Of a DNA stretch of 38,681 bases, positions 3,026 to 27,572 are shown one piece after another. The DNA comes from a virus, in the IMG/VR virus record IMGVR_UViG_3300050119_000054, positions 1 through 38,681 of that record; one strand, given 5' to 3'. The position numbers were made by a program, and so were the translations under genes. Below the pieces are notes generated by a model. The model searched no databases. It had not been told where the DNA came from and worked only from the letters and a program-made list of their open reading frames with translations. Within the stretch, counting starts at the first letter, position 1, and each line of letters opens with the position of its first letter.

Positions 3026-3153
3026 TAAAAAAGGCTTGACCCGCTGCACAAGTAAGGTTAAGTTATCGAAACAAGGCCGCCAAGCCTCTGGAACTAAAAA
3101 ATCCATGCTCAAATCGTGCGGTCTTCCTGTTCCATAAATAAAAGAGAGACAAC
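3026..3153 (+). other. Structured leader upstream of the 82-aa gene
   Basis: 128 nt without a gene. A 7-bp stem (3032-3038 with 3081-3087, AGGCTTG/CAAGCCT) encloses about 40 nt. A second pairing, GGAAC 3090-3094 with GTTCC 3129-3133, follows. GCAC 3046-3049 could pair with GTGC 3116-3119 across the first stem. It ends in the ribosome-binding site AGAGAG of the next gene. It may be a 5' leader or processing/termination structure; no T-run is present. Confidence 0.35.
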
Positions 3154-3402
3154 ATGAATAGACAATCATTAGAAACAAGAAAAATTGATTTACAACGCAA
3201 TATTGATAATTCATTATCAAACCACAATGGTCTATTGGGGCGTTTGGCAGAATGTAATTATCAGATTGAAGAGTTAGATAAAAAAGAAGCGGCCGCTAGA
3301 TTATCATGTGCTAAAGTAGAAAAAACAAAAAAAACAAAGAAAGCTTCATCCATCAAAGCTCCTTCTATCAAAGATGCTGCGATAAAAACCGATAAAGCTT
3401 AG
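3154..3402 (+). CDS. Small coiled-coil protein with Lys/Ala tail
   Basis: 82 residues: a heptad-like charged N-terminal half (about 1-50, with LETRKIDLQRNIDNSLSN and YQIEELDKKEAAARL) and a low-complexity Lys/Ala/Ser tail. No signal peptide or membrane segment. AGAGAG precedes the ATG; the same A/G-rich ribosome site recurs before several genes of this genome. It sits between the tail genes and the endolysin. A lysis-accessory role is possible but unsupported. Confidence 0.6.
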   Translation: MNRQSLETRKIDLQRNIDNSLSNHNGLLGRLAECNYQIEELDKKEAAARLSCAKVEKTKKTKKASSIKAPSIKDAAIKTDKA

Positions 3403-5542: not shown

Positions 5543-6250
5543 TCACTCTTCTTTTTTTGTTAGTAGCATTGGCAATGGTGATCTAGGGAATATTTTTGCT
5601 AAAGAGCATACTTTTTCTTTCGCAATCTGAAAACATTCTTTGTAAGGTATATCTTTAGACATACTATCTTTGAGAGAAATTGCTATGGCTTCGTCAGCCA
5701 TTTCAATAAGTCTTAATTGACGAATAGACATAACATCTCTTGCATTAGGAAATCTCTCCTCTAAGATAAAAAGTCCGGTCAATTCCATCCTAGAAAAGTT
5801 CATATAATATTTTTCTGCTGACTTGCTGCCTTGTTCTTTTGCATAAATAATGAATCTTTGTATGATGTCAGTACACTCTTTTCTCATTGCTTTTGTTTCT
5901 GTGCGAGAAGAAAGCCATTCAATGTTTTTTTCATTTGAAACCTTTGTCAAAATTATTTGGCGCATATGATAAAACTGCTCAACCAATTTAATTTTGAAAT
6001 CAATTACCTCTGGCGAGTTTTTCATTAACGCTATTAGCAGAGAGGCCTGAAGTTCACTCAACAAATATACGTCAACTTCTTTTTTCCATACCCTTCTTTT
6101 GGTAGTGCCTATATTAGCAAACGCTTTTATTTGAGCATGGGTTTTTAATAGGGCAACGATGGAACGATGCTCCATGTTTAAACCTAAAGCTAAGGATGCT
6201 GAATCTGTAAACACATTATTTCCTATTATTACTACTAATTTATTTTGCAT
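5543..6250 (-). CDS. Rha-family phage regulatory protein
   Basis: 235 residues. The N-terminal ~105 match the Rha domain: a DNA-binding-like start (LGLNMEHRSIVALLKTHAQI), then VYLLSELQASLLIALMKNSP and VIDFKIKLVEQFYHMRQ, the family's signature. Rha proteins are phage regulators tied to lysogeny control and host-factor dependence; several act as antirepressor-like factors. The C-terminal half is a separate helical domain. A good promoter with an inverted repeat stands immediately upstream (6285-6341), so it is probably controlled independently of the exonuclease. Confidence 0.85.
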   Translation of the reverse strand: MQNKLVVIIGNNVFTDSASLALGLNMEHRSIVALLKTHAQIKAFANIGTTKRRVWKKEVDVYLLSELQASLLIALMKNSPEVIDFKIKLVEQFYHMRQIILTKVSNEKNIEWLSSRTETKAMRKECTDIIQRFIIYAKEQGSKSAEKYYMNFSRMELTGLFILEERFPNARDVMSIRQLRLIEMADEAIAISLKDSMSKDIPYKECFQIAKEKVCSLAKIFPRSPLPMLLTKKEE

Positions 6251-6284: not shown

Positions 6285-6313
6285 ATTATAAATCAAACAA
6301 ATAGATATGTCAT
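6285..6313 (-). promoter_or_regulatory. Promoter of the Rha gene
   Basis: Read leftward: ATGACA (6308-6313, 5 of 6 to consensus), 17-bp spacer, TATAAT (6285-6290, perfect). The predicted transcript starts about 28 nt before the Rha ATG. Operator-like repeats lie in the spacer and just upstream. Confidence 0.7.
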
Positions 6314-6395: not shown

Positions 6396-7226
6396 TTACT
6401 TCACTAAAAACGAACGACCTCTTTTGCCACTCTTCCAGGTACAAAGAGCCTTCCCTGCCCCATCGGTCAAAGTATCACTTTCACCCATGTACGCCATAAT
6501 ATTCATCTTGGACTTTTCCATTAATTCTTCATAACCAGATATCCTAGTTTTGCACTGAACATAAGCGGCAAGATTGCTGTCAATAAAATCAGTCGATACA
6601 ACTTTGTTTTCAGGAACAGAAGTCGGAAACTTCAATTTATAATCATTCAAATTCACAAGCGCAGGTTCTGTCTTAGTCTGTACGCATTCCCAGAATTTTA
6701 AATCAGCTTCTAAAATCATGCTTTCTAGTTCTTGGTCACGTTCGTACTCGAATTGTAGGTACTCATTGCCGCCAATTAGGATTGCGAAGTAACCTTTGTC
6801 GGCTTCGGAAACCATAACTTGCTTTGCAATCTGAATAAGGTATTGTGCTGGTACGCCGTCTTGGAAAGAATCATCCCACTCTTTGCGCATGAATGAGCCA
6901 ACGTTCTTTACTTCTACAACTGCGTTTTGAATCGGTATATAACCATCCAGGTTCGCGAACAGAAAGTCATAGTCTTTATGATGGACTGTATCGGGTGTCG
7001 TAACGTCAACACCGTTTAATTCTGCGAAGTGCTGCAATATAACAGACTCAAGTTTGTTTCCCCAGAACTGACGTTCAGTTTCGACTTGCTCAGTCATTGT
7101 TATGATGCCGGTCTTTTCTAGGAAGAGCTCGTATGGGGTTTTATATGTGCTTGCACCCATGATGATTGGACTATCCGAGGCTCCAATTCCCTGTAATCTG
7201 GCCTTTCTCTGCTCTTCTGTAATCAA
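6396..7226 (-). CDS. YqaJ/lambda-type exonuclease
   Basis: 276 residues. RLQGIGASDSPIIMGASTYK near the N-terminus is the usual opening of YqaJ-like phage recombinases. ANLDGYI, then VEVKNVG give the catalytic Asp and Glu-x-Lys of the PD-(D/E)XK fold, and AQYLIQIAKQVMVSEADKGY is the conserved Gln helix. It should resect double-strand ends to feed the RecT-like annealase. The start chosen is TTG 7226: GGAG (7234-7237) precedes it by 7 nt. The longer TTG at 7256 lies beside the promoter -10 box and has no ribosome site. Confidence 0.88.
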   Translation of the reverse strand: MITEEQRKARLQGIGASDSPIIMGASTYKTPYELFLEKTGIITMTEQVETERQFWGNKLESVILQHFAELNGVDVTTPDTVHHKDYDFLFANLDGYIPIQNAVVEVKNVGSFMRKEWDDSFQDGVPAQYLIQIAKQVMVSEADKGYFAILIGGNEYLQFEYERDQELESMILEADLKFWECVQTKTEPALVNLNDYKLKFPTSVPENKVVSTDFIDSNLAAYVQCKTRISGYEELMEKSKMNIMAYMGESDTLTDGAGKALCTWKSGKRGRSFLVK

Positions 7227-7256
7227 GGTAAATCTCCACTTTTGTAATGAAAGCAA

Positions 7257-7285
7257 AGTATACTACAAACATTTGTTGACGTAAA
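7257..7285 (-). promoter_or_regulatory. Leftward early promoter (exonuclease operon)
   Basis: Leftward TTTACG (7280-7285), 17-bp spacer, TATACT (7257-7262). It is back to back with the rightward promoter; the two -35 boxes share 2 bp. The operator at 7265-7276 fills its spacer. Confidence 0.7.
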
Positions 7286-7296
7286 CAAATATTTGT
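7265..7296. promoter_or_regulatory. Paired operators between divergent early promoters
   Basis: Two 12-bp near-palindromes, ACAAACATTTGT (7265-7276) and ACAAATATTTGT (7285-7296, perfect), have centres 20 bp apart, two helical turns. The first covers the spacer of the leftward promoter and touches the rightward -35; the second covers the rightward spacer. This is the geometry of a CI/Cro-type switch. The adjacent Cro-like gene is the obvious candidate ligand. Confidence 0.65.
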
Positions 7297-7304
7297 ATGA
7301 TAAT
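7276..7304 (+). promoter_or_regulatory. Rightward early promoter (cro-like operon)
   Basis: TTGACG (7276-7281), 17-bp spacer, GATAAT (7299-7304). Transcription should begin near 7311, which excludes ATG 7293 as the start of the downstream gene and supports ATG 7344. Confidence 0.7.
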
Positions 7305-7343
7305 GTAAAAAAAGAGCAACAAGGACAACAATGGCGGTACGAA

Positions 7344-7562
7344 ATGACATTAGACGAAGCAGTACAATTTTTTGGAAGTGGTAGACAGATTTGCATGGCG
7401 TTGGGGATTAGTCCTCAGAACTATACGCATTGGCGGTCACGAGGGTTTATCCCTGGGTTACAGCAATATAGGCTTGAGAAACTATCAGAAGGGAAGCTTA
7501 AATCAGATGATGGAAAACGAGGAATTACAGGAGTTCCGGGCATGGAAACGTGCGAAGGATAA
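7344..7562 (+). CDS. Cro-like repressor (P22 Cro type)
   Basis: 72 residues from ATG 7344 with GGCGG upstream. LDEAVQFFGSGRQICMALGI then SPQNYTHWRSRGFIPGLQQY then RLEKLSEGKLK follows the helix-turn-helix layout of P22-Cro-like proteins, including the C-terminal YRLEKLSxGKL motif. It is the first gene of the rightward early operon and likely binds the operators at 7265-7296, repressing both divergent promoters. An upstream in-frame ATG (7293) overlaps the promoter and is rejected. The protein may instead be the only switch regulator, since no S24-type CI is seen here. Confidence 0.82.
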   Translation: MTLDEAVQFFGSGRQICMALGISPQNYTHWRSRGFIPGLQQYRLEKLSEGKLKSDDGKRGITGVPGMETCEG

Positions 7563-7707
7563 GAACGAACTAGAAGAGGCTTTCCATGCGCTTGAGCAGT
7601 CTATCAAGCCTGGCAATGCTCGCGGTTATAATTGCGTTATGCCATCATTGGCGTATAAGACTTTGGCTGTTGCTTTGTTGGCTTTGAAAAAGGAGATAAT
7701 TCCTTGA
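7507..7707 (+). CDS. Small helical protein, unknown function
   Basis: 66 residues from ATG 7507 with AGAAGGGAAG upstream, overlapping the cro-like gene by 56 bp in another frame. Charged N-terminal helix (ENEELQEFRAWKRAKDKNEL), then a more hydrophobic C-terminus (YKTLAVALLALKKEI). The next gene starts at its stop (TGATG). Not recognised. Confidence 0.55.
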   Translation: MMENEELQEFRAWKRAKDKNELEEAFHALEQSIKPGNARGYNCVMPSLAYKTLAVALLALKKEIIP

Positions 7708-7847
7708 TGTATTTTGCGTGGGCGTTGTTATCAATTTGCGTTGTGGTTTTTTCAATTTATTTGGGTGTCGCAATGCCTTTAATTTCGTACAGAATTAAGC
7801 GAAAAATACGCAGGATTATTTACAGAATTAGGAGTTATTTTAGATGA
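7707..7847 (+). CDS. 46-aa single-pass membrane protein
   Basis: 46 residues: a hydrophobic helix at about 3-30 (WALLSICVVVFSIYLGVAMP within it), then a very basic tail (RIKRKIRRIIYRIRSYFR). AGGAG lies 11 nt upstream, and it overlaps both neighbours by 1-4 bp, so it is translationally coupled. The basic tail would stay in the cytoplasm. An early inner-membrane protein, perhaps for superinfection exclusion, is a guess. Confidence 0.6.
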   Translation: MYFAWALLSICVVVFSIYLGVAMPLISYRIKRKIRRIIYRIRSYFR

Positions 7848-7879
7848 ATTTTAAAGGTTTTTTAACTAAGGAGAAAACA

Positions 7880-8161
7880 ATGGGTAAGTATATTAATTTC
7901 AAGAATATTTCATCAAAAAAAGTAACACTAAAAGCACCGGTTTATTTTTATATGGATAGATGCAATATTATGGAGTCATTGAATATTAAAAAATTTGAAG
8001 ATGATGACAATGAATTTGAGGTTCAAGTATCGACAGTGTATTCAGGTGGCTTTAATGTTTGGTTTGATAGTATAGAAAAAGCACAAAAACTATATGACTT
8101 TCTAGTCAATATGCTTATAAATGATATTGGCGGCCAAATTGATTTAAACGATTACAGATAA
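7880..8161 (+). CDS. Small early protein, unknown function
   Basis: 93 residues from ATG 7880, which has AAGGAG 6 nt upstream. An alternative ATG at 7844, overlapping the previous stop and with its own AGGAG, would add 12 residues. Lys/Asp/Asn-rich with aromatic strands (KAPVYFYMDRCNIMESLNIK, VYSGGFNVWFDSIEKAQKLY). No known motif. Confidence 0.6.
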   Translation: MGKYINFKNISSKKVTLKAPVYFYMDRCNIMESLNIKKFEDDDNEFEVQVSTVYSGGFNVWFDSIEKAQKLYDFLVNMLINDIGGQIDLNDYR

Positions 8162-8178
8162 TTAACCATGGGGCGTAG

Positions 8179-8436
8179 ATGAAAATCGACATAGATTACC
8201 TAGACTTTCAGAGTCTTATTTTATACGCAATGCGCTACGCCCTAGGTCGTAAAACGTTTGCAGTAAGTGATGTTGCAGAGATGATAGAAGACCACATGCA
8301 GGAACTTAACAAATCGACTATGGAATTAATGGTTAGAGACATAGAAAAAGAAAGTGAAAGGCACAATTTAGGCATGGAAATGGACAAGAAAATTTGGCTG
8401 GATTTGGTGGTTAAATTGAAAGGAAGATTAAAATGA
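8179..8436 (+). CDS. Small helical early protein, unknown function
   Basis: 85 residues, alpha-helical and charged. It starts MKIDIDYLDFQSLILYAMRY and has a segment VSDVAEMIEDHMQELNKSTM that resembles a short helical bundle. The stop overlaps the next start (ATGA). Unrecognised. Confidence 0.6.
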   Translation: MKIDIDYLDFQSLILYAMRYALGRKTFAVSDVAEMIEDHMQELNKSTMELMVRDIEKESERHNLGMEMDKKIWLDLVVKLKGRLK

Positions 8437-8627
8437 AAAATATCAAAATTTTCGAAGTATTACGCGATAATTTACGGGAAGCAAAGCAAGATTTAATGAA
8501 TCATTTAGCGGATAATTACATAGATATAGACTACGATTCTAGGCTGATTATTGTAGGTGAGATACGTGCGTTATCTTCTGTTATTGCGCAGTTGCGTGGC
8601 ATAATTAAGTGGGGAGATGTTGAATGA
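8433..8627 (+). CDS. Small helical early protein, unknown function
   Basis: 64 residues, charged and helical (KIFEVLRDNLREAKQDLMNH). The C-terminal half is GEIRALSSVIAQLRGIIKWG. ATGA overlaps join it to both neighbours, implying coupled translation from the early operon. Unrecognised. Confidence 0.55.
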   Translation: MKNIKIFEVLRDNLREAKQDLMNHLADNYIDIDYDSRLIIVGEIRALSSVIAQLRGIIKWGDVE

Positions 8628-8824
8628 ACGAGGATTTGATTTATAATTTTGCCTTTGAAGTAAACAAATGGATATTAATTATTAAAGGGCTTGATTATGT
8701 CGTAATGCCTGGCCTGCATGAGCTTTTTGAGGTTTCAAAATCTGATTTTGCTAAGCTTATACTTTCTTCAGAACATGACATCAATCAGTATCGGTTTGTT
8801 CTTTCGATAAAACAGATTAAGTAG
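8624..8824 (+). CDS. Small early protein, unknown function
   Basis: 66 residues with many hydrophobic and aromatic residues (NEDLIYNFAFEVNKWILIIK). It is the last gene before the structured noncoding stretch. ATGA overlap with the previous gene. Unrecognised. Confidence 0.55.
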   Translation: MNEDLIYNFAFEVNKWILIIKGLDYVVMPGLHELFEVSKSDFAKLILSSEHDINQYRFVLSIKQIK

Positions 8825-8970
8825 TGGAGATGTTACTAATACTTATGCAGAACAACCCAAGGCACGTCCTGGTGTGGAATTGCTAAGAGCTGAGACCAAT
8901 AACTATCTGCGATACGGTAGGCCAGCCACAAGCATCCGTTGTAACGCGCAGAGTTGTTCTGCACCCTTTA

Positions 8971-9076
8971 TGAGACACGACAAGCCTACCAAGCACTCAT
9001 GAGTCTAAATACTTCTGGAAGTGAGCGGAGGTTCGATTCCTCGGGGCTGTGGAGACGTCGCCACCGTGTCTCACCA
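8971..9076 (+). ncRNA. tRNA-like domain with CCA end inside the structured RNA
   Basis: On the + strand a 9-bp stem (8971-8979 with 9065-9073) contains a 7-bp acceptor-like helix GAGACAC/GTGTCTC, followed by A and CCA (9073-9076). A hairpin GTGG/CCAC (9049-9064) sits where a T-arm would. Inside, GGAGG-TTCGATT-CCTC (9027-9042) is a canonical T-loop sequence, itself closed by a bulged stem 8980-8987/9044-9050. No acceptable anticodon arm could be drawn, and the length (~105 nt) is too great for a normal tRNA. Confidence 0.45.
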
Positions 9077-9217
9077 TAAACCTCTCGCCGATAAGAGGCT
9101 CGACGGTTAAGAAAACCGCTTTAAATATCGAGACAAAGGCCGTTACTGGACGTAAACCAGCATTCCCTCATAGAACACAATTTAACCATTATTAGAACAA
9201 TTTGTTTTTAATCTGGA

Positions 9218-9246
9218 TTGACAAGCTATTGATTTTACAGTAATGT
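9218..9246 (+). promoter_or_regulatory. Possible rightward promoter inside the structured region
   Basis: TTGACA (9218-9223) is a perfect -35 box. 17 bp downstream, TAATGT (9241-9246) is only a half-match -10. Transcription would begin near 9253, just before the first of three consecutive hairpins (9257-9338). AAACAAAT occurs in reverse at 9200-9207. If active, it would make a separate ~120-nt RNA or serve the replication genes. Confidence 0.4.
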
Positions 9247-9256
9247 AGGTTTTAAA

Positions 9257-9338
9257 GGACGAGCCGTAATCTCGTCCCCAAGACCTGCCCTAGTGGGCAA
9301 GGAGTGATTTAGAGAAGGCCTTCACACCTTTCTAAATC
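9257..9338. ncRNA. Three consecutive strong hairpins (second half of structured region)
   Basis: Hairpin 1: 9257-9277, 7 bp, loop CCGTAAT. Hairpin 2: 9284-9302, 7 bp with one bulged A, loop TAGT. Hairpin 3: 9306-9338, 12 bp with one bulged G, loop of 8. The loops of hairpin 1 and of 9146-9160 share CGTAA. Spacing of only 3-6 nt between stems suggests one folded unit. None is followed by a T-run, so these are not simple terminators. Confidence 0.55.
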
Positions 9339-9383
9339 TATTGAATGCTTAACGTGATAGGAGTCACATCAAACATGCTCACA

Positions 9384-9411
9384 ATTATAACACCAATCAT
9401 TTACCTGTCAA
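9384..9411 (-). promoter_or_regulatory. Consensus leftward promoter facing the structured RNA
   Basis: Leftward TTGACA (9406-9411, perfect), 16-bp spacer, TATAAT (9384-9389, perfect). It is the closest to consensus of any promoter I found here. Transcription would start near 9377, at the edge of the structured region, and run against the surrounding rightward genes. An operator-like sequence (9409-9423) overlaps the -35 box. Confidence 0.65.
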
Positions 9412-9423
9412 CATTTGTTTGCA
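9409..9423. promoter_or_regulatory. Operator-like site overlapping the leftward -35 box
   Basis: Read leftward it is GCAAACAAATGTTG, sharing its first 13 bases with the operator copy at 19585. It includes AAACAAAT (9413-9420). A repressor bound here would block the leftward promoter. Confidence 0.5.
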
Positions 9424-9471
9424 TCAACCTAGCTATTTTTTTTCGTTTCTTAACTGAGAGGGATTTTTATC

Positions 9472-9582
9472 ATGCGTAAATTGCTTATTGCACGGTCATT
9501 GCTACATGGCAAAGGAATGCCAATTTCTTATCACAAGTTTACTGTTAAGCGTCAGGAAGAGATTTTGAGGGGTATGTTATGA
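9472..9582 (+). CDS. 36-aa basic peptide upstream of the initiator
   Basis: 36 residues (MRKLLIARSLLHGKGMPISY at the start). GAGAGGGA stands about 8 nt before the ATG, and its stop overlaps the initiator start (ATGA). This coupling is the main support. Basic, no known motif; it may simply drive translation of the initiator. Confidence 0.5.
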   Translation: MRKLLIARSLLHGKGMPISYHKFTVKRQEEILRGML

Positions 9583-10358
9583 ATTATTCCTTCGATCATA
9601 TTGTGGCAACAAATCACGGAGTCAATGAGGCTATCTTTTTAAACAATTTAGCTTTTTGGATCAGAACAAACTGGGCAAAAAATAAAAATTTTCATGATGG
9701 ACGAACTTGGTCTTACAATTCATACGCTGGATTTATTAAGTATTTTCCTTTCTGGACAGAGAAACAAATTAGGACAATTGTTAACAGTTGTGAGAAGCAA
9801 GGGTTATTGTGTTCGTCTAATTACAATACTGCAAAATATGATCGCACAAAGTGGTATTCTTTAACAGATAAAGGGTTAAAGCTCTTTCCTGACCTCATTT
9901 GCCCAAATGGGCAGATGGAAGAGACAGATCAGGCAGTACCATCTGCCCAAATGGGCAGACCTATACCAGATATAAACACAAATATAAAACAAGATAATAA
10001 TATATGCGTAAACGAAGAAACCGAAACCACACCTGACCATTGCAACGCTAAAGCGTCGCGTAATTTACTTGCTGAAAAGCTAAAGCCCTATACAGACACC
10101 TGGAATGAGCTAGCGGTACCCAAAGGCTGTCCAAAGATAGGGAAGGACAAGCGCCAATTGAAGACCATCGAGAGGCATATCAAACAAATTGAAACCGAGT
10201 GGGAAAACAAGTTCAACCCTGAAAGCTTTCGTATCTGGTTAACCAAGGCTATTGATTCAGAGTTTTTTATGCTGACTAATTTTAAGCATCCGATGGATAT
10301 TTGCTTACGATATAAACACTTCACCGCAGCTTATGATAAAATTATGAACACAAACTAA
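9579..10358 (+). CDS. Replication initiator / helicase-loader type protein
   Basis: 259 residues. The N-terminal ~105 look like a winged helix-turn-helix of phage replication proteins (LNNLAFWIRTNWAKNKN, GFIKYFPFWTEKQIRTIVNS, CEKQGLL, TKWYSLTDKGLKLFP). A low-complexity linker (~110-150) is followed by a helical C-terminus that could contact the helicase. The gene sits immediately before a DnaB-type helicase, as lambda O/P or P22 gene 18 do. Two 21-bp palindromic repeats and an AT-rich tract lie inside the linker-coding part, as in lambda O, where the origin is within the gene. Confidence 0.75.
   Translation: MNYSFDHIVATNHGVNEAIFLNNLAFWIRTNWAKNKNFHDGRTWSYNSYAGFIKYFPFWTEKQIRTIVNSCEKQGLLCSSNYNTAKYDRTKWYSLTDKGLKLFPDLICPNGQMEETDQAVPSAQMGRPIPDINTNIKQDNNICVNEETETTPDHCNAKASRNLLAEKLKPYTDTWNELAVPKGCPKIGKDKRQLKTIERHIKQIETEWENKFNPESFRIWLTKAIDSEFFMLTNFKHPMDICLRYKHFTAAYDKIMNTN
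9896..9960. repeat. Two palindromic iteron-like repeats in the initiator gene (candidate origin)
   Basis: Copies at 9896-9916 and 9940-9960 agree at 19 of 21 positions, and each contains the inverted repeat TGCCCAAATGGGCA. Their start-to-start distance is 44 bp, about four helical turns. An AT-rich stretch (9961-10012) follows directly. This is the layout of a lambda-type origin: initiator-binding iterons plus an unwinding element. Confidence 0.55.
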
Positions 10359-10372
10359 AAAAGAGAGAAAAA

Positions 10373-11761
10373 ATGAGAGATAAGTTTACCAACGTTAGGC
10401 TGGAAGAGCAGGTATTGGGATCGATGTCGAACATATCCTTACCGAATAACGCGATTTTGATGGATGCAATGGATCTACTCCATGAGTCATGCTTCACATC
10501 CTTTGAGCGTAGAGCATTATTTCAGTATCTTATGCAACAACATGTTAATGGGAAAGAGATTTCACCTTCGGCATTAACTATGGATTTGTTAGGCAAAGAC
10601 GTCGATATGTTCCAGTTGCTGATTAACCTAACATCCGACAAACCTAATTATGAAAATTCATTGACACCATGGGTACATGAGCTGAACGATTTGCGGATAG
10701 ATAGAGGATATACAGAGACATTACGATCAGCCTGGGAATTAATGGCAAAAGAAACGGACAGACCTACCAGGCGAGAACACGCGGAAAGCATTCAAGATAA
10801 GCTAATAGGACTGATCGATATCAACACCGCTTCCGCAAATATACTGGTCAACACCGTTGACGGTATGAAAGAACTACAAAAAGCTGATGATAACAATGTT
10901 ACGAAAATACGGACGGGCCTTGCAAATCTGGATGAATTTTTACGAGGTGGTATTAATGCAGCCTCTCTTGTAGTAATTGGCGCGGCTCCTTCTGCGGGTA
11001 AAACGCATTTAGGATTAAAGATGCTCTATGAAATGCATTGTTTGCAACCTGAAAAAGAGGCGATAATTTTCACTCTTGAAGGAACACGAGTTAGCATCAA
11101 CGAAAGACTTGTATCACACCATTGGGGAAAAGATTATAAATACATGTCCAAAGATGAACGCAGAAGCGCCAGAGAATCTTTCTCTCAATCAAACATATCT
11201 ATCAGCGAGAAACAAGAAATCACCTTAGACCGTATTCAAAATGCTTGTAAACGCGTGTCAATGAGGAAAGGAATATCTGTGGTCATGGTCGACTATCTAG
11301 ATCGCATCAAAAAGCCTAAAGGTGAAATGAGACAGGACGAGAAGCTTGCAGAGATTGCTAACGGTTTGGCAAACATGGCAGTATCTTTGAATTGCATTGT
11401 GATCTTAACTACTCAGCTAAACAAAGAGGCAATTAAGCGCAGCAACAGACGTCCTGAGCCGGTTGATTCTAAAAACTCTTCTGGTCAGGCAGAGGCTGCT
11501 AGTTACTGGTTTGGCATAAAGAGGATCTCACAGTGGGATGAGGGTGTAAAATATCCTGACTCTAACCTGGTAGAGCTTATTGTAGGTAAAAACCGCAATG
11601 ACTCCCTGGAAGGAATTGTTTATTTTGAAGGAAAGAATGGTTTATACAATGAAATTGATCAAAACTATGCGAGAGAGTTAGTAATTCAAAGTGATGAAAT
11701 GAGGAAATCAAAACCGCACAATCATCCCATCGATAAAAAAACATGGTTTGAGCTTAAATGA
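10373..11761 (+). CDS. dnaB: Replicative DNA helicase, DnaB family
   Basis: 462 residues. The N-terminal domain (1-105) has the DnaB opening VRLEEQVLGSM and HESCFTSFERRALFQYL. The RecA-like domain carries Walker A GAAPSAGKT (203-211), the IIFTLEGTRVSINERLVSH segment, Walker B VVMVDYLDR (304-311), and TTQLNKEAIKR with the sensor Gln. The C-terminus includes SYWFGIKRI and VGKNRN with the arginine finger region. It should form the hexamer that unwinds phage DNA. AAGAGAGAAAA precedes the ATG. The stop overlaps the next start as ATGA. Confidence 0.93.
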   Translation: MRDKFTNVRLEEQVLGSMSNISLPNNAILMDAMDLLHESCFTSFERRALFQYLMQQHVNGKEISPSALTMDLLGKDVDMFQLLINLTSDKPNYENSLTPWVHELNDLRIDRGYTETLRSAWELMAKETDRPTRREHAESIQDKLIGLIDINTASANILVNTVDGMKELQKADDNNVTKIRTGLANLDEFLRGGINAASLVVIGAAPSAGKTHLGLKMLYEMHCLQPEKEAIIFTLEGTRVSINERLVSHHWGKDYKYMSKDERRSARESFSQSNISISEKQEITLDRIQNACKRVSMRKGISVVMVDYLDRIKKPKGEMRQDEKLAEIANGLANMAVSLNCIVILTTQLNKEAIKRSNRRPEPVDSKNSSGQAEAASYWFGIKRISQWDEGVKYPDSNLVELIVGKNRNDSLEGIVYFEGKNGLYNEIDQNYARELVIQSDEMRKSKPHNHPIDKKTWFELK

Positions 11762-17249: not shown

Positions 17250-17714
17250 TCACTCCTTACCTTCTAGTTCGGCAATCCAGTTTAAGACAATCCCAAAAGC
17301 TTGGAACGCTGGCGAATATCCGGTGCTTTCACTTACCTGTTTTGCTATTTCTACCCGTGATTTTAATATATTTAGTGGGAATGCGTGCTGGGTGAATTTT
17401 ATTCCCGTCCCTAAATTACTCAGCGCTGGTATGTCTTCACTTATTGTTGGAATATCCGCCACTGCGCACGTATCTCCGAATACCATATCTGGAGTTATTC
17501 CTTCTTCATAGGCAGGAAATTGAGATTTAAACTCACTCATGCTAAAACCATAATGCTTGCAAATGCCTTTCATATATTTGTCGTTAGGCGGTTTTTTGCC
17601 AGTCTCCCACTGATACACGGTATTGTACGACACCCCGAAACTGTCTGCGATTTGCTGTCGCGACCACTTCATTGCCTCGCGTTTAATTGTTAGGAATTGG
17701 CCTAGGGTCATCAT
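17250..17714 (-). CDS. XRE-family helix-turn-helix regulator
   Basis: 154 residues. The N-terminal domain (1-65) is a Cro/CI-type helix-turn-helix: SRQQIADSFGVSYNTVYQWE (18-37), then TGKKPPNDKYMKGICKHYGF. The C-terminal ~85 residues lack the S24 protease Ser/Lys pattern of LexA/CI repressors, so RecA-induced self-cleavage is not expected. It is inside a long leftward operon rather than beside the 7.3-kb operators. It is a candidate second regulator of the shared AAACAAAT sites. Confidence 0.82.
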   Translation of the reverse strand: MMTLGQFLTIKREAMKWSRQQIADSFGVSYNTVYQWETGKKPPNDKYMKGICKHYGFSMSEFKSQFPAYEEGITPDMVFGDTCAVADIPTISEDIPALSNLGTGIKFTQHAFPLNILKSRVEIAKQVSESTGYSPAFQAFGIVLNWIAELEGKE

Positions 17715-21210: not shown

Positions 21211-21379
21211 AGAGGATAGAACCTATAGACAGCACATGATTATGATGTTGCGTGCTATGGGTCACGAAGACATTCCGCACCGTATTATGACAGACGATCA
21301 ATTGCGTAATGCCGTTGAGGATTGCAAGATTAAGTTTTTGCGTAAATTACAAGTAGAAGCCGAATGCAATCAATCTTGA
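21182..21379 (+). CDS. Small protein upstream of the large terminase
   Basis: 65 residues, charged helical (YRQHMIMMLRAMGHEDIPHR). The start lies inside the previous gene; ATG 21236 is an alternative. It overlaps the terminase start by 16 bp. Unrecognised. Confidence 0.55.
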   Translation: MKTQNLQASEEDRTYRQHMIMMLRAMGHEDIPHRIMTDDQLRNAVEDCKIKFLRKLQVEAECNQS

Positions 21380-22908
21380 TGCAAGATGCTTTATTAAAAC
21401 TAAAGGACTTTCAGTACTTCGCAGAGTCTTTTTTTCGTATTCGCACTAAGTCGGGCAGCGTTGACAAGTTTGTGCTCAATCGTGCTCAGTTATATATTCA
21501 CGCGCGCATTGAGGCGCAACTTAAAGAGACGGGGAAAGTTAGAGCAATCATCCTTAAAGGCAGGCAACAAGGATGCTCAACATACGTACAGGCTCGTTAC
21601 TTTCATAAGACAATTACAAACCGCGGTATAAAAACTTTTATCCTGACCCATGAGGCAAGCGCAACAAAAAACTTATTTGATATGACAAAAAGGTATTATG
21701 AGTATCTGCCCGCTGGACTTATCCCAAGAGCAAACAGAGATAGCCAAAAGGAGCTTAAGTTTGAGTCAATCGATTCAGGATATGCTATCGGTACGGCCGG
21801 GTCAAAGGGCACGGGACGCTCACAAACAGTTCAGTTGTTACATGGCTCAGAAGTATCATTTTGGCCAAACGCAGCAGAGCATGCACAAGGCTTGATGCAA
21901 GCAGTTGGCGACCAAAATGATACAGAGATAATCCTTGAGTCCACGGCAAACGGTATTGGCAACTACTTTCATTCTGTGTGGATTGCAGCAGAGCAAGGCA
22001 AGTCAAACTTTCAAGCCATCTTCGTTCCGTGGTACTGGCAGCCCGAGTATAAAGCATATTATAGTCAATCTCATGACGAGATATATTTAAGCGCCGAAGA
22101 GCAGCAATTGCTAGATGTTTACGCTGGCAATGGCATGACGCGTGAGCACATCTATTGGCGCAGGTTTAAAATCGGCCAGTTCAGCAACGACCATGAGCTA
22201 GGTGTAAGGCTATTTAATCAAGAGTATCCATGCTGCGCTAAAGATGCGTTTCTTAACCCGGTTGAGGATACTTTTATACCGTCTCATTTTGTGCTTGCAG
22301 CTCGTAACGCTAAAGTTGAGAGCGCAGCACAAACGCTTGTCATAGGCGTTGACCCCGCAATTGGTGACAATGACCGTTGCGTTATCATTAAGCGCAAAGG
22401 ACGCATTGCATATGACTGCGAGATACTGCGCAATCACAATACAATGGAGTTGGCAGGTAAGCTTAAGACCATGATTGATAAATTCAAGCCTACAAAGGTA
22501 TTCATCGACTGCATTGGCATAGGCGCGGGCGTTGTGGATAGGTTGCAAGAGATGGGATACCCATGCGTTGAGGGCGTAAACGTTGCCAGGTCTGCCAATG
22601 ACAAAGAGCGTTTCGCAAACCTACGCGCTGAGCTATGGAGTGAGATGCGAGACTGGCTAACTGGAGAAATACCTGTACAAATACCAGATAGCGACGAGAT
22701 ACACGCCGATTTATGCAGCCTGGGCTACAAGCACAAGAGCAACGGCCAGTTATTAATTGAGTCAAAAGATGATTTACGCAAGCGCGGTATGCCATCCTGT
22801 GACTTAGCGGATGCTCTTATGCTCACATTTTCATCAGGGCAGTATCTAGGAGAGTCATCCTTCAAAGCTTCATTTATGCCCGAACAACATCGTTCAATGT
22901 TTACCTGA
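21364..22908 (+). CDS. Terminase large subunit (packaging ATPase/nuclease)
   Basis: 514 residues. The ATPase domain has KGRQQGCST (65-73) as Walker A, unusual in having Cys where Lys or a hydrophobic residue is common, TFILTHEA, and IILESTANG with Glu192 as the Walker B/catalytic carboxylate. The nuclease domain has VIGVDPAIGD (Asp330), VFIDCIGIG and DLADALML as the three acidic sites of an RNase H fold. It should translocate DNA into the prohead at the portal and cut it by the headful mechanism typical of P22-like phages. Confidence 0.93.
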   Translation: MQSILMQDALLKLKDFQYFAESFFRIRTKSGSVDKFVLNRAQLYIHARIEAQLKETGKVRAIILKGRQQGCSTYVQARYFHKTITNRGIKTFILTHEASATKNLFDMTKRYYEYLPAGLIPRANRDSQKELKFESIDSGYAIGTAGSKGTGRSQTVQLLHGSEVSFWPNAAEHAQGLMQAVGDQNDTEIILESTANGIGNYFHSVWIAAEQGKSNFQAIFVPWYWQPEYKAYYSQSHDEIYLSAEEQQLLDVYAGNGMTREHIYWRRFKIGQFSNDHELGVRLFNQEYPCCAKDAFLNPVEDTFIPSHFVLAARNAKVESAAQTLVIGVDPAIGDNDRCVIIKRKGRIAYDCEILRNHNTMELAGKLKTMIDKFKPTKVFIDCIGIGAGVVDRLQEMGYPCVEGVNVARSANDKERFANLRAELWSEMRDWLTGEIPVQIPDSDEIHADLCSLGYKHKSNGQLLIESKDDLRKRGMPSCDLADALMLTFSSGQYLGESSFKASFMPEQHRSMFT

Positions 22909-22950: not shown

Positions 22951-25011
22951 ATGGCACGTAAAAACCCTGTAATGGCACAAAAGATAAGAGATTGCGTAGA
23001 AACGTGGGAAAATTACTGGCACGATAACAAAAATAACTACATAGAGTACGTGCAATTCATTTTTGGAAATCAATGGCTGGATGAAGAGGCGAGAGTATTT
23101 GAAACTTACAAAAAGATACCGCTAACGTTTAATAAGATTGCGCCTCTTGCTAACCACATGCTTGGAGAACAACGACAAAACACTCCTACCCTTGAATGCG
23201 TTCCGGAAGAGGATACCCCGGAAGAAACTGCAGAGGTACGCGAAGCATTGGTCAAAGATATCACGCTTAATAGTGATACATCTGTAGTGTTTCAGACTGC
23301 GTTTCAGTGCGCAATTACAGGCGGTTATGGTGCTTTCTATGTCGACACAGAATACGAGAGTGATTATTCATTTGACCAAGTTATACGTATTCGCAAGATT
23401 GAAATACCCACGCGTTGCTATTGGGACACTAGCTCAATCAGCCCAACTAAAGTAGATGGATTGCACGCAGGGTTTCGTACTCGCATGTCCCGAGAAAAGT
23501 GCGCGGCGTTGTATGGCAAGAAAGTAGAGCAATCAATCCCTCCATCAAATCTCGAGGAAGGCTCAGTATCCAATGACGATGAATCGGTTACGATATACAC
23601 CCATTGGGAACGTGAGTACATGACTACCAAGCTGTACAAGCTAAGCAATGGCAAAACAGTTGACGATGAAGGTTTTAGAGACTTAGAGTGTATAGAAATA
23701 GATGGAAAAGAAATGCTACTTGATGACGGCGAACTTGTGACAATAGAGGGAAAACGTAGCAGCCCAAGATACAAAGTGCGTAAGTATGTCTATGCAGGAG
23801 ACTACGAACTTGAAGCCGAAGATTTTCCCAGCCAGCAATTGCCTCTTGTGTTCGTTGACCAAAACTCATTTTTCAATAAAGAGGGCAGCCAGGTTACGCG
23901 CTCGTTTTTTAAAGACACTAAAGACGCTCAGCGTTATATCAACTATCTTGGCACGCAATCAGCATACCTGGTTAAGATAGGACGTTACGACCAGTTCTTA
24001 ATTGCAGCAGGTAATGCGCGCAGCAATGATACTGCTCAAATATGGCGCGACCCCTCAAACATACAAGGTGGCTTAAAGTTCGACGAAGTGGCGAGTGGAT
24101 TCACTCCTCAGCAATTAAAACCGCCAGAATTGTCAGTATCATTAACACAGCAATATGAGCGTGCGGAACGTGACATACAGACCTGTACGGGCATGTACAA
24201 CACAATGACCGGAGACCAAGGCAATGAGACATCTAAGTTGGCTATTGACGCTCGCACTAAGCGCGGAAATTTTAATACTTTTGTACCAAAAGATTCATTA
24301 GATAGAGCAATTACGGTTTGTGGTGAGATAGTAAACGAGATGATACCGTTTATTTATGACACAGAACGCACAATGATGCTTGGCATGAAAGATACTGGCT
24401 CAACCGCGGTAACTCTTAATAAGTCACAAGACATTTACGGCGGTAAAATACAAAACGACATGACAAAAGGCCGATACAAGATACGCTTAATGCCTGGGCC
24501 AAGCTTCGAGGGGCAGAAACAAGAGGCTTTAAACTCAATGCAGCTTATACTTCAAGCAAACCCACAGCTTTTTAATTTAATTGCAGATTTATACGTTGAA
24601 AACTTGCCATTGATGAACAATTTGCAGCTTCGTAACCGGCTTAAAACCATTGTGCCGCCCGAGGTCATCGAAGCGGGCAAAACAGGACAGCCAGTGCCAC
24701 CAAAACCACAGCCACCAGACCCAATGATTGAAGTGAAGATGAAAGAGCTTGCATTGCAAGAAGAGAAGTTGAAGATTGAGCAAGAAAAATTACAGATGCA
24801 AGGCGTAGAAACAGGCCAGCAGTTGCAGATGAAATGGCAAGAACTAGAAGCCAAGCGAGAAGAAGCGGCGGCCAAACTAAAAGAAATGGAGTTGAGATAC
24901 ATGGCTGAGACTGGGCGCATGGAGGCGGATGCAAGTATCGCTCATGCTAACAACATAGTTAAATTGCTAGTAAGCGCACATAAACAACCAAAAAAAGAGG
25001 GTAACGAATGA
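22951..25011 (+). CDS. Portal protein, P22 gp1 type
   Basis: 686 residues, near the 725 of P22 gp1. NYIEYVQFIFGNQWLDEEAR and PLTFNKIAPLANHMLGEQRQ are typical of the N-terminus. The C-terminal ~90 residues form a long Gln/Glu-rich coiled coil (EEKLKIEQEKLQMQG), the position of P22's barrel. It should form the dodecameric ring for DNA entry and exit. The stop overlaps the scaffold start (ATGA). Confidence 0.92.
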   Translation: MARKNPVMAQKIRDCVETWENYWHDNKNNYIEYVQFIFGNQWLDEEARVFETYKKIPLTFNKIAPLANHMLGEQRQNTPTLECVPEEDTPEETAEVREALVKDITLNSDTSVVFQTAFQCAITGGYGAFYVDTEYESDYSFDQVIRIRKIEIPTRCYWDTSSISPTKVDGLHAGFRTRMSREKCAALYGKKVEQSIPPSNLEEGSVSNDDESVTIYTHWEREYMTTKLYKLSNGKTVDDEGFRDLECIEIDGKEMLLDDGELVTIEGKRSSPRYKVRKYVYAGDYELEAEDFPSQQLPLVFVDQNSFFNKEGSQVTRSFFKDTKDAQRYINYLGTQSAYLVKIGRYDQFLIAAGNARSNDTAQIWRDPSNIQGGLKFDEVASGFTPQQLKPPELSVSLTQQYERAERDIQTCTGMYNTMTGDQGNETSKLAIDARTKRGNFNTFVPKDSLDRAITVCGEIVNEMIPFIYDTERTMMLGMKDTGSTAVTLNKSQDIYGGKIQNDMTKGRYKIRLMPGPSFEGQKQEALNSMQLILQANPQLFNLIADLYVENLPLMNNLQLRNRLKTIVPPEVIEAGKTGQPVPPKPQPPDPMIEVKMKELALQEEKLKIEQEKLQMQGVETGQQLQMKWQELEAKREEAAAKLKEMELRYMAETGRMEADASIAHANNIVKLLVSAHKQPKKEGNE

Positions 25012-26306: not shown

Positions 26307-27572
26307 GTGGCCAATTTATTCCAAACAACGCAATACATACTCGATGAAGTATTCATTCGGTATATAAACTATTTAAACTTCGCAAAAGTTGCAAACAGAA
26401 ACCTCGAAGCAGACTTCAAAAATCTAAAATATGCAACTGGACAAACAATCAACTATCGTCTTGAAGAAAGATTTCTTGGTGGTTATGGCGCAACTGCTAC
26501 AGACGAAGCAGTAGTGCAAGTTGTTCGTCCTTTGACAATCGACACTCAGTTCAACTCATTAGTGTCTTTCAATGGTATGGAATTAACATTCGATCGTGCG
26601 CGTGACCAACCATACTTAGATATGATGTTGAAACCACGTGCTAAACGCTTAGCGAACAACGTTGAGTCATTCATTTGCGCTCAAAACTTCCAGCCTGCGG
26701 TTTATCAAACTACTGGTACCCCTGGTGTTCCAATCACATTACAGACTGTTTTAAACACAGATGCGTACATGACTGAACTCGGTATCCCCGAAGACGGTAA
26801 CAGATACTTTGCAAACAGCCCTGGCGTTTCAGCTGCTTTATCAGGTTCTTTGTACACTGTATTTAACATGACTGTTAACCGTGGCGCATTGATGGACGGC
26901 TTTATCGGTCACTTGTCAGGATTTGACTTCTTCAAGACTAACTTCTTGACTTATCAAACTGCGGGTACTGGTGAAACTGGTTCGTCTGGTGTTGCTGGGT
27001 TCTTGTTGGCAGGAACAATTACTAACGGCCCTATCAGCTCAGGAAATACTTTTGTATTGACTGGATTGATTGCAAGCCAACCACATCCGTTCAATGTTGG
27101 TGACAAGATACAATTTGCCCAGGCGGCAGGCGTGTTCATGGTCAACCCATTGGCGTCAGCAGGTCAAACAGGTGGATATATTCCATTGCAGCAAACGGCG
27201 CAGTTCGTTGTTGTGTCTTCAACTGTTTCTGATAGCGGTGGGAACGCTACAATCACAGTAAGCCCAACAATCGTCGTAAGTGGAGCACGTCAAAATATTT
27301 CTGGCGCGATTCCAAACGGTGCTCAATTGTTGCTTGCTGAAAGTCATAACGAATCAATTGCGTTTCATAATCAGGCTATTGTATTTGCAGCCCCTCCAAT
27401 CACTGAGTTAAAAGGTGGTGTTGAGGCGGTTACGACTTACAGTGACTTGTACAAAATGGCAATGACATACACGATAGGTTCTGATATTCGAAACTATGTC
27501 CAGTTAGACCGTTTAGATATCATCGCAGGTGTTGCAATCAACCCTGAATGGGCTGTAACTGTAATGTCCTAA
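26307..27572 (+). CDS. Major capsid protein, P22 gp5 type
   Basis: 421 residues, compared with 430 in P22. The opening NLFQTTQYILDEVFIRYINY and TGQTINYRLEERFLGGYG fit the P22 coat family (HK97 fold). The middle (about 230-330) is Gly/Ser/Thr-rich and probably corresponds to the family's inserted domain. Start is GTG 26307 with AGGAG 6 nt upstream. A stable GNRA hairpin follows the stop. Confidence 0.92.
   Translation: MANLFQTTQYILDEVFIRYINYLNFAKVANRNLEADFKNLKYATGQTINYRLEERFLGGYGATATDEAVVQVVRPLTIDTQFNSLVSFNGMELTFDRARDQPYLDMMLKPRAKRLANNVESFICAQNFQPAVYQTTGTPGVPITLQTVLNTDAYMTELGIPEDGNRYFANSPGVSAALSGSLYTVFNMTVNRGALMDGFIGHLSGFDFFKTNFLTYQTAGTGETGSSGVAGFLLAGTITNGPISSGNTFVLTGLIASQPHPFNVGDKIQFAQAAGVFMVNPLASAGQTGGYIPLQQTAQFVVVSSTVSDSGGNATITVSPTIVVSGARQNISGAIPNGAQLLLAESHNESIAFHNQAIVFAAPPITELKGGVEAVTTYSDLYKMAMTYTIGSDIRNYVQLDRLDIIAGVAINPEWAVTVMS

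Follow-up and report, generated by a model that had tools for sequence, protein, structure and literature searches.

A candidate antisense RNA and a tRNA-elbow-like module in the gene-free region beside the replication genes of a P22-like phage

The gene-free region upstream of the replication genes of a P22-like podovirus may be a composite of two RNA elements: a leftward antisense RNA directed against the replication leader and a separate, tRNA-like module on the plus strand. The module favors the plus strand and the two ends of the region favor the minus strand, and the parts are therefore read as two elements lying side by side, an interpretation held at about even confidence. The initial annotation had proposed a structured noncoding RNA of about 530 nt. 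Its structured and noncoding character is well supported by covariation within 111 nt and by a consensus promoter that reads into the region, but a single sense-strand RNA of 530 nt is not.

The window, the entire stretch of DNA analyzed here, is the whole virus record of 38,681 bases (Table 1). The HTH repressor-like and Rha-like genes suggest that the phage is temperate, despite no integrase or partition gene being recognized among the ORFs tested in the record. The second-best promoter of the genome (11/12 positions) lies on the minus strand at 6285-6313, just upstream of the Rha-like gene. On its left the gene-free region is bordered by a 66-aa ORF ending at 8824, and on its right by rep and then the DnaB-like helicase gene. 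As the initial annotation stated, no credible ORF is found here: between 8824 and the start of rep at 9579 there are zero ORFs of at least 50 aa, and two overlapping short ORFs near the right border are the only ones present. A protein reading of the 530 nt was dropped for lack of an ORF. The region is also less AT-rich than its surroundings, with a GC content of 0.51-0.55 at 8901-9100 compared with 0.407 genome-wide, and the helices named earlier all exist, namely 11 bp at 8846-8856/8953-8963, 9 bp at 8971-8979/9065-9073, 7 bp at 9257-9263/9271-9277, and a 12-bp hairpin at 9306-9338.

Table 1. Coordinates of the gene-free region, its predicted elements, and the genes that define its setting.
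Feature	Position	Strand	Basis or remark
Rha-like regulator gene	5543-6250		
Left hairpin-bounded domain	8841-8966	minus	11-bp perfect helix, extended by G-U pairs on the minus strand
Conserved 111-nt module	8967-9077	plus	Homologues and covariation
Linker with small hairpins	9078-9247	unassigned	No excess structure on either strand
Four consecutive hairpins, 5' end of predicted leftward RNA	9248-9378	minus	Folding z -5.89
34-codon ORF (putative)	9375-9479	plus	Sequence; AGGAG at 9359-9363
Sigma-70 promoter, TTGACA-N16-TATAAT, extended -10 (TG)	9384-9411	minus	Reads leftward into the region
36-codon ORF (putative)	9472-9582	plus	Overlaps the 34-codon ORF and the rep start
rep, replication initiation protein / DnaD-like helicase loader	9579-10358	plus	phrog_11233, E 3.7e-30; phrog_6493, E 1.7e-24
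DnaB-like replicative helicase	10373-11761	plus	phrog_19, E 6.8e-58; PF03796, E 7.1e-35
HTH repressor-like gene	17250-17714		
Terminase	21364-22908		
Portal	22951-25011		
Major head protein	26307-27572		

The earlier description of the region as densely folded holds for the named stems, but the sense strand exceeds chance only modestly and the minus strand folds clearly better. Over 8826-9400, the folding z-score is -2.26 on the plus strand, a modest excess over chance (2/100 shuffles), and -4.55 on the minus strand; over 8838-9378, the minus strand reaches -4.86 (0/100 shuffles). The bias resides at the two ends, with z-scores of -5.89 on the minus strand vs -3.48 on the plus strand for the right end (9378-9248) and of -3.21 vs -1.19 for the left end (8966-8841). 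Shuffled sequences match the between-strand energy difference of the whole region in 0 of 120 cases, of the right end in 2 of 300, and of the left end in 1 of 300; for the 111-nt module 87 of 300 do so, and its difference is thus not beyond that of shuffled sequence. No strand difference is present at 9078-9247, and within it the stretch 9078-9215 (z -0.4 and -1.1 on the two strands) has no excess structure. The advantage of the minus strand stems from helices whose G-U pairs are possible on that strand alone, for instance a 13-bp hairpin at 9376-9345.

Leftward transcription is predicted from the promoter at the right border. A scan of 7200-10400 contained one perfect sigma-70 site, and the promoter at 9411-9384 is the sole 12/12 match genome-wide, with 0.05 expected per genome in dinucleotide-Markov sequence. 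The predicted start, at about 9378, coincides with the right border of the gene-free region. Upstream of rep homologues in viral contigs (33 non-redundant regions), 12 promoter-like sites occur on the minus strand vs 4.35 in shuffles (maximum of 8 across 20 rounds), and 4 on the sense strand vs 4.55. This enrichment lends weak support to an antisense promoter, as divergent genes upstream of rep could explain part of it. No strong intrinsic terminator was found for the leftward RNA: the hairpin at 9279-9255 is followed only by UUUAAAA, and a short RNA ending after the fourth hairpin, near 9240, would have no good U-tract. Consequently, the predicted length may be about 135, 300, or 540 nt. A plus-strand promoter at 9219-9247 (TTGACA-N17-TAATGT) matches at only 9/12 positions and is not relied on.

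The 5' end of the predicted RNA is complementary to the start codon (AUG, 9375) and to the AGGAG of the 34-codon ORF. In its first hairpin (9345-9376), the antisense strand displays the loop CUCCUA, and the matching sense-strand hairpin displays the Shine-Dalgarno loop UAGGAG. The overlaps of the 36-codon ORF with its neighbors make it a candidate for translational coupling; no homologues were found to confirm either short ORF. In the proposed mechanism, the leftward RNA would start from the consensus promoter immediately ahead of the rep/DnaB operon, and its 5' hairpins would face the leader of the replication mRNA, which runs rightward; this leader includes the translation start of a short ORF that is chained by overlaps to rep. 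Pairing of the two loops would block translation of the short ORFs and hence of rep, the putative target, or else trigger cleavage by RNase III. In either case, synthesis of replication proteins would be limited, as with lambda OOP or plasmid CopA.

Such an arrangement has known counterparts. The P22 sar RNA is a small antisense RNA that covers the ribosome-binding site of its target, ant; the RNA predicted here would likewise be a small antisense RNA of a P22-type phage lying over the ribosome-binding site of its target, but the candidate target is the replication leader. Control by CopA/CopT involves a leader ORF and loop pairing. It differs in being a proven plasmid system, whereas the present case concerns a phage with a DnaD-like loader and is predicted from sequence only. 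Two features expected of a cis-antisense RNA of the OOP, sar, or CopA type, a strong promoter opposing the target operon and complementarity to the translation start of the target, are seen here at the level of sequence in the 12/12 extended promoter on the minus strand and in the match to the putative 34-codon ORF. In the literature, sar is listed as a phage antisense RNA, and CopA/CopT of plasmid R1 as a cis-antisense RNA system that inhibits translation through translational coupling (PMC5415839). Transcription of lambda OOP proceeds leftward from the pO promoter, which lies upstream of O, and the RNA covers the end of cII (PMC5869508). Like OOP, the predicted transcript would be a leftward antisense RNA located just upstream of a replication initiator gene in a temperate-type phage (PMC5869508; PMC3349717). 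In contrast to OOP, which is short and overlaps the end of cII with a clear terminator, tO, no strong terminator is seen here, and the predicted 5' end lies opposite the beginning of a short ORF. The predicted RNA may accordingly be called OOP-like in its would-be mode of action, and is not a proven member of that class.

The second element, the 111-nt module, is the part of the region for which a homologue exists. Among terminase-homology loci, its sole real match is a locus (L050, 60-170) with 79% identity to the window over 8967-9077 (E 1e-20). The copy is also present at 60-170 of L318, and an identical sequence lies at 3139-3249 of a second contig of the same phage (L321). There it sits between the small and large terminase genes in the sense direction; a 118-aa ORF stops about 10 nt before it, and a 96-aa ORF starts 28 nt after it. 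Similarity between the window and L050 stops abruptly a few bases beyond the outer helix on both sides. In L321, a 13-bp direct repeat (AAGGATTGATTGA) at 3120-3132 and 3262-3274 flanks the module, an arrangement suggestive of insertion with a duplication.

An outer helix (8971-8979/9065-9073) encloses the module and an inner, acceptor-like helix (8983-8987/9044-9048) lies within it. The remaining parts are an arm with a stem of 6-7 bp and a loop of 20 nt (8994-9000/9021-9027), a T-arm with the loop UUCGAUU (9028-9031/9039-9042), and a hairpin, H4, with the invariant loop AGACGUCG (9049-9052/9061-9064). The alignment with L050 is gapless, and 14 of the 23 differences among 111 positions fall in helices. 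All 28 proposed plus-strand pairs are nonetheless still standard; nine have changed, five of them on both sides, and the T-arm GAGG-UUCGAUU-CCUC of the window becomes UGGG-UUCGAAU-CCCA in the homologue. When the same helix sites were substituted at random, all pairs survived in 4 of 20,000 trials. The four one-sided changes are G-U-compatible on the plus strand only, and RNAalifold gives -33.95 with 32 pairs on the plus strand vs -29.6 with 23 pairs on the minus strand; the outer frame, T hairpin, H4 hairpin, and part of the arm can also form on the minus strand. The plus-strand covariation is good evidence, though not conclusive, as it comes from only two distinct sequences. A short-ORF reading of the module was set aside, there being no ribosome-binding site and the stops differing. 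The left domain (8842-8967) directly adjoins the module, with which it shares an outer frame of the form TTATG-helix...helix-CACC (a weak match, 4.2 bits), and the two may be distant tandem copies.

In its architecture the module resembles the elbow of a tRNA from which the decoding parts are absent, and it is closer to the tRNA-like domain of tmRNA than to a tRNA. Like the tRNA and tmRNA families of Rfam, it has a T-arm with a UUCGANU loop and an acceptor-like helix close behind, and like tmRNA it has no D-stem. Unlike either, it has no anticodon arm, which is also missing from the covarying structure, and no tag ORF, while its acceptor-like helix is 5 bp long, is not followed by CCA, and is enclosed by a further helix. 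Cloverleaf, 7-bp acceptor, and anticodon arm are all lacking; ARAGORN at default settings calls neither tRNA nor tmRNA, and Rfam reports no tRNA in the module. The L050 copy has a weak Rfam score for the tmRNA 3' end (15.2 bits, E 4e-4; gathering cutoff 47), with neither the tag ORF nor the score of a tmRNA. With the score threshold lowered to 60%, ARAGORN calls a minus-strand tmRNA, but this is noise, shuffles giving more than one call per sequence. The module may thus be described as a small, unnamed RNA family represented by two distinct sequences; excised from operon transcripts, it would become a small RNA mimicking tRNA toward a host factor.

Other tRNA-like or structured RNA sequences were seen in the loci examined. 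A related phage (L147, 3276-3336, plus strand) carries one with a 7-bp acceptor helix, a D-arm, and a perfect T-arm (TCACAAG...GGCGGGTTCGATTCCCGCC..CTTGTGA) and no anticodon arm; it is preceded by a 9-bp hairpin and is called by neither ARAGORN at default nor Rfam. Between its terminase gene and the following late gene, L104 has a minus-strand tRNA gene (5676-5747; Rfam 36.4 bits) that ARAGORN misses at default and whose anticodon loop, judged by eye, is apparently 9 nt. L154 has an int-alpA RNA match on the minus strand (6687-6752) scoring 35.1 vs the Rfam gathering score of 35.8.

Further relatives were sought widely. A homologue with compensatory changes exists for the 111 nt but not for the rest: the whole 530 nt has no match in the phage collection or in the sampled genomes, the genome searches having had no positive control. 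A DNA search with the module in phages and plasmids gave no real match, nor did a DNA query of 369 gammaproteobacterial and 385 alphaproteobacterial genomes, again without a positive control. When about 2.9 million bases of related and pattern-matched loci were scanned with a covariance model built from the two module sequences (R1), no additional member emerged; the model's three matches in the 385 alphaproteobacterial genomes (L322-L324) were rejected as chance in GC-rich sequence. A pattern search of viral contigs returned the known lineage and two chance matches; a further pattern, built on the invariant loop, picked out 86 stretches, none with a convincing match to R1. The region is also absent from loci reached via the rep and DnaB neighborhood.

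The main rival of the composite reading is a single noncoding RNA transcribed leftward from its own promoter over about 540 nt (from 9378 to about 8838), a new class of large structured RNA comparable to GOLLD and ROOL with the module as one domain. This reading is less likely than the composite one. In its favor, the promoter matches consensus, the whole minus strand folds with a z-score that no shuffle equaled, both end domains prefer that strand, and the GC content differs from that of the genome. Against it, the homologue covers 111 nt only and stands alone between genes in its own locus, the changed module pairs favor the plus strand, and no 3' terminator was found. Both GOLLD and ROOL are cage-forming phage RNAs, and tRNAs may be carried in a linker of GOLLD (PMC12286853). 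They are, like the present region, phage-borne, structured, and several hundred nt long. However, no Rfam match at a useful threshold occurs here, the strands of the parts differ, and instead of a several-hundred-nt structure conserved across phages, only 8967-9077 has a homologue. That neither family was recognizable had already been remarked, and Rfam agrees: the whole window contains no family at gathering score, the GOLLD, ROOL, OLE, and HEARO models do not match, and relaxing the threshold to E 10 across 8700-9600 gives only two chance matches to other families. A variant, rather doubtful, combines the new-class leftward RNA and its promoter with a mobile tRNA-elbow-like cassette built into it, itself a new family occurring in two phage lineages at unrelated loci.

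It is unlikely that the region is a decayed or foreign, functionless insertion whose hairpins and promoter are leftovers or chance. Its absence from the closest terminase relatives examined and its odd GC content would suit such an origin, but a 12/12 promoter is hardly expected by chance in one genome, and random substitution rarely leaves every module helix intact. An element acting as DNA, either a replication origin or protein-binding inverted repeats beside the replication genes, is very unlikely; the position upstream of rep/DnaB, the many inverted repeats, and the flattening of the GC skew near 8800 are in keeping with it, but no iterons were found, and G-U-dependent strand bias and covariation are signatures of RNA. 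Least probable is the single sense-strand RNA of about 530 nt first proposed, which shares the plus strand with the module and the genes and has the modest plus-strand z-score in its favor, but is not supported because conservation is limited to 111 nt, folding of the end domains is better on the minus strand, and the region is missing from the closest terminase relatives examined.

Should the composite reading hold, an OOP-like antisense RNA would control the replication operon of a P22-type phage, and the classical OOP-type mechanism would extend to an uncultivated lineage. The 111-nt module would then constitute a new family of small RNAs, tRNA-like and without a decoding part, that is carried at variable positions in phage genomes. 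Such a tRNA mimic would be a candidate partner of host tRNA-handling proteins or of defense proteins that target tRNA.
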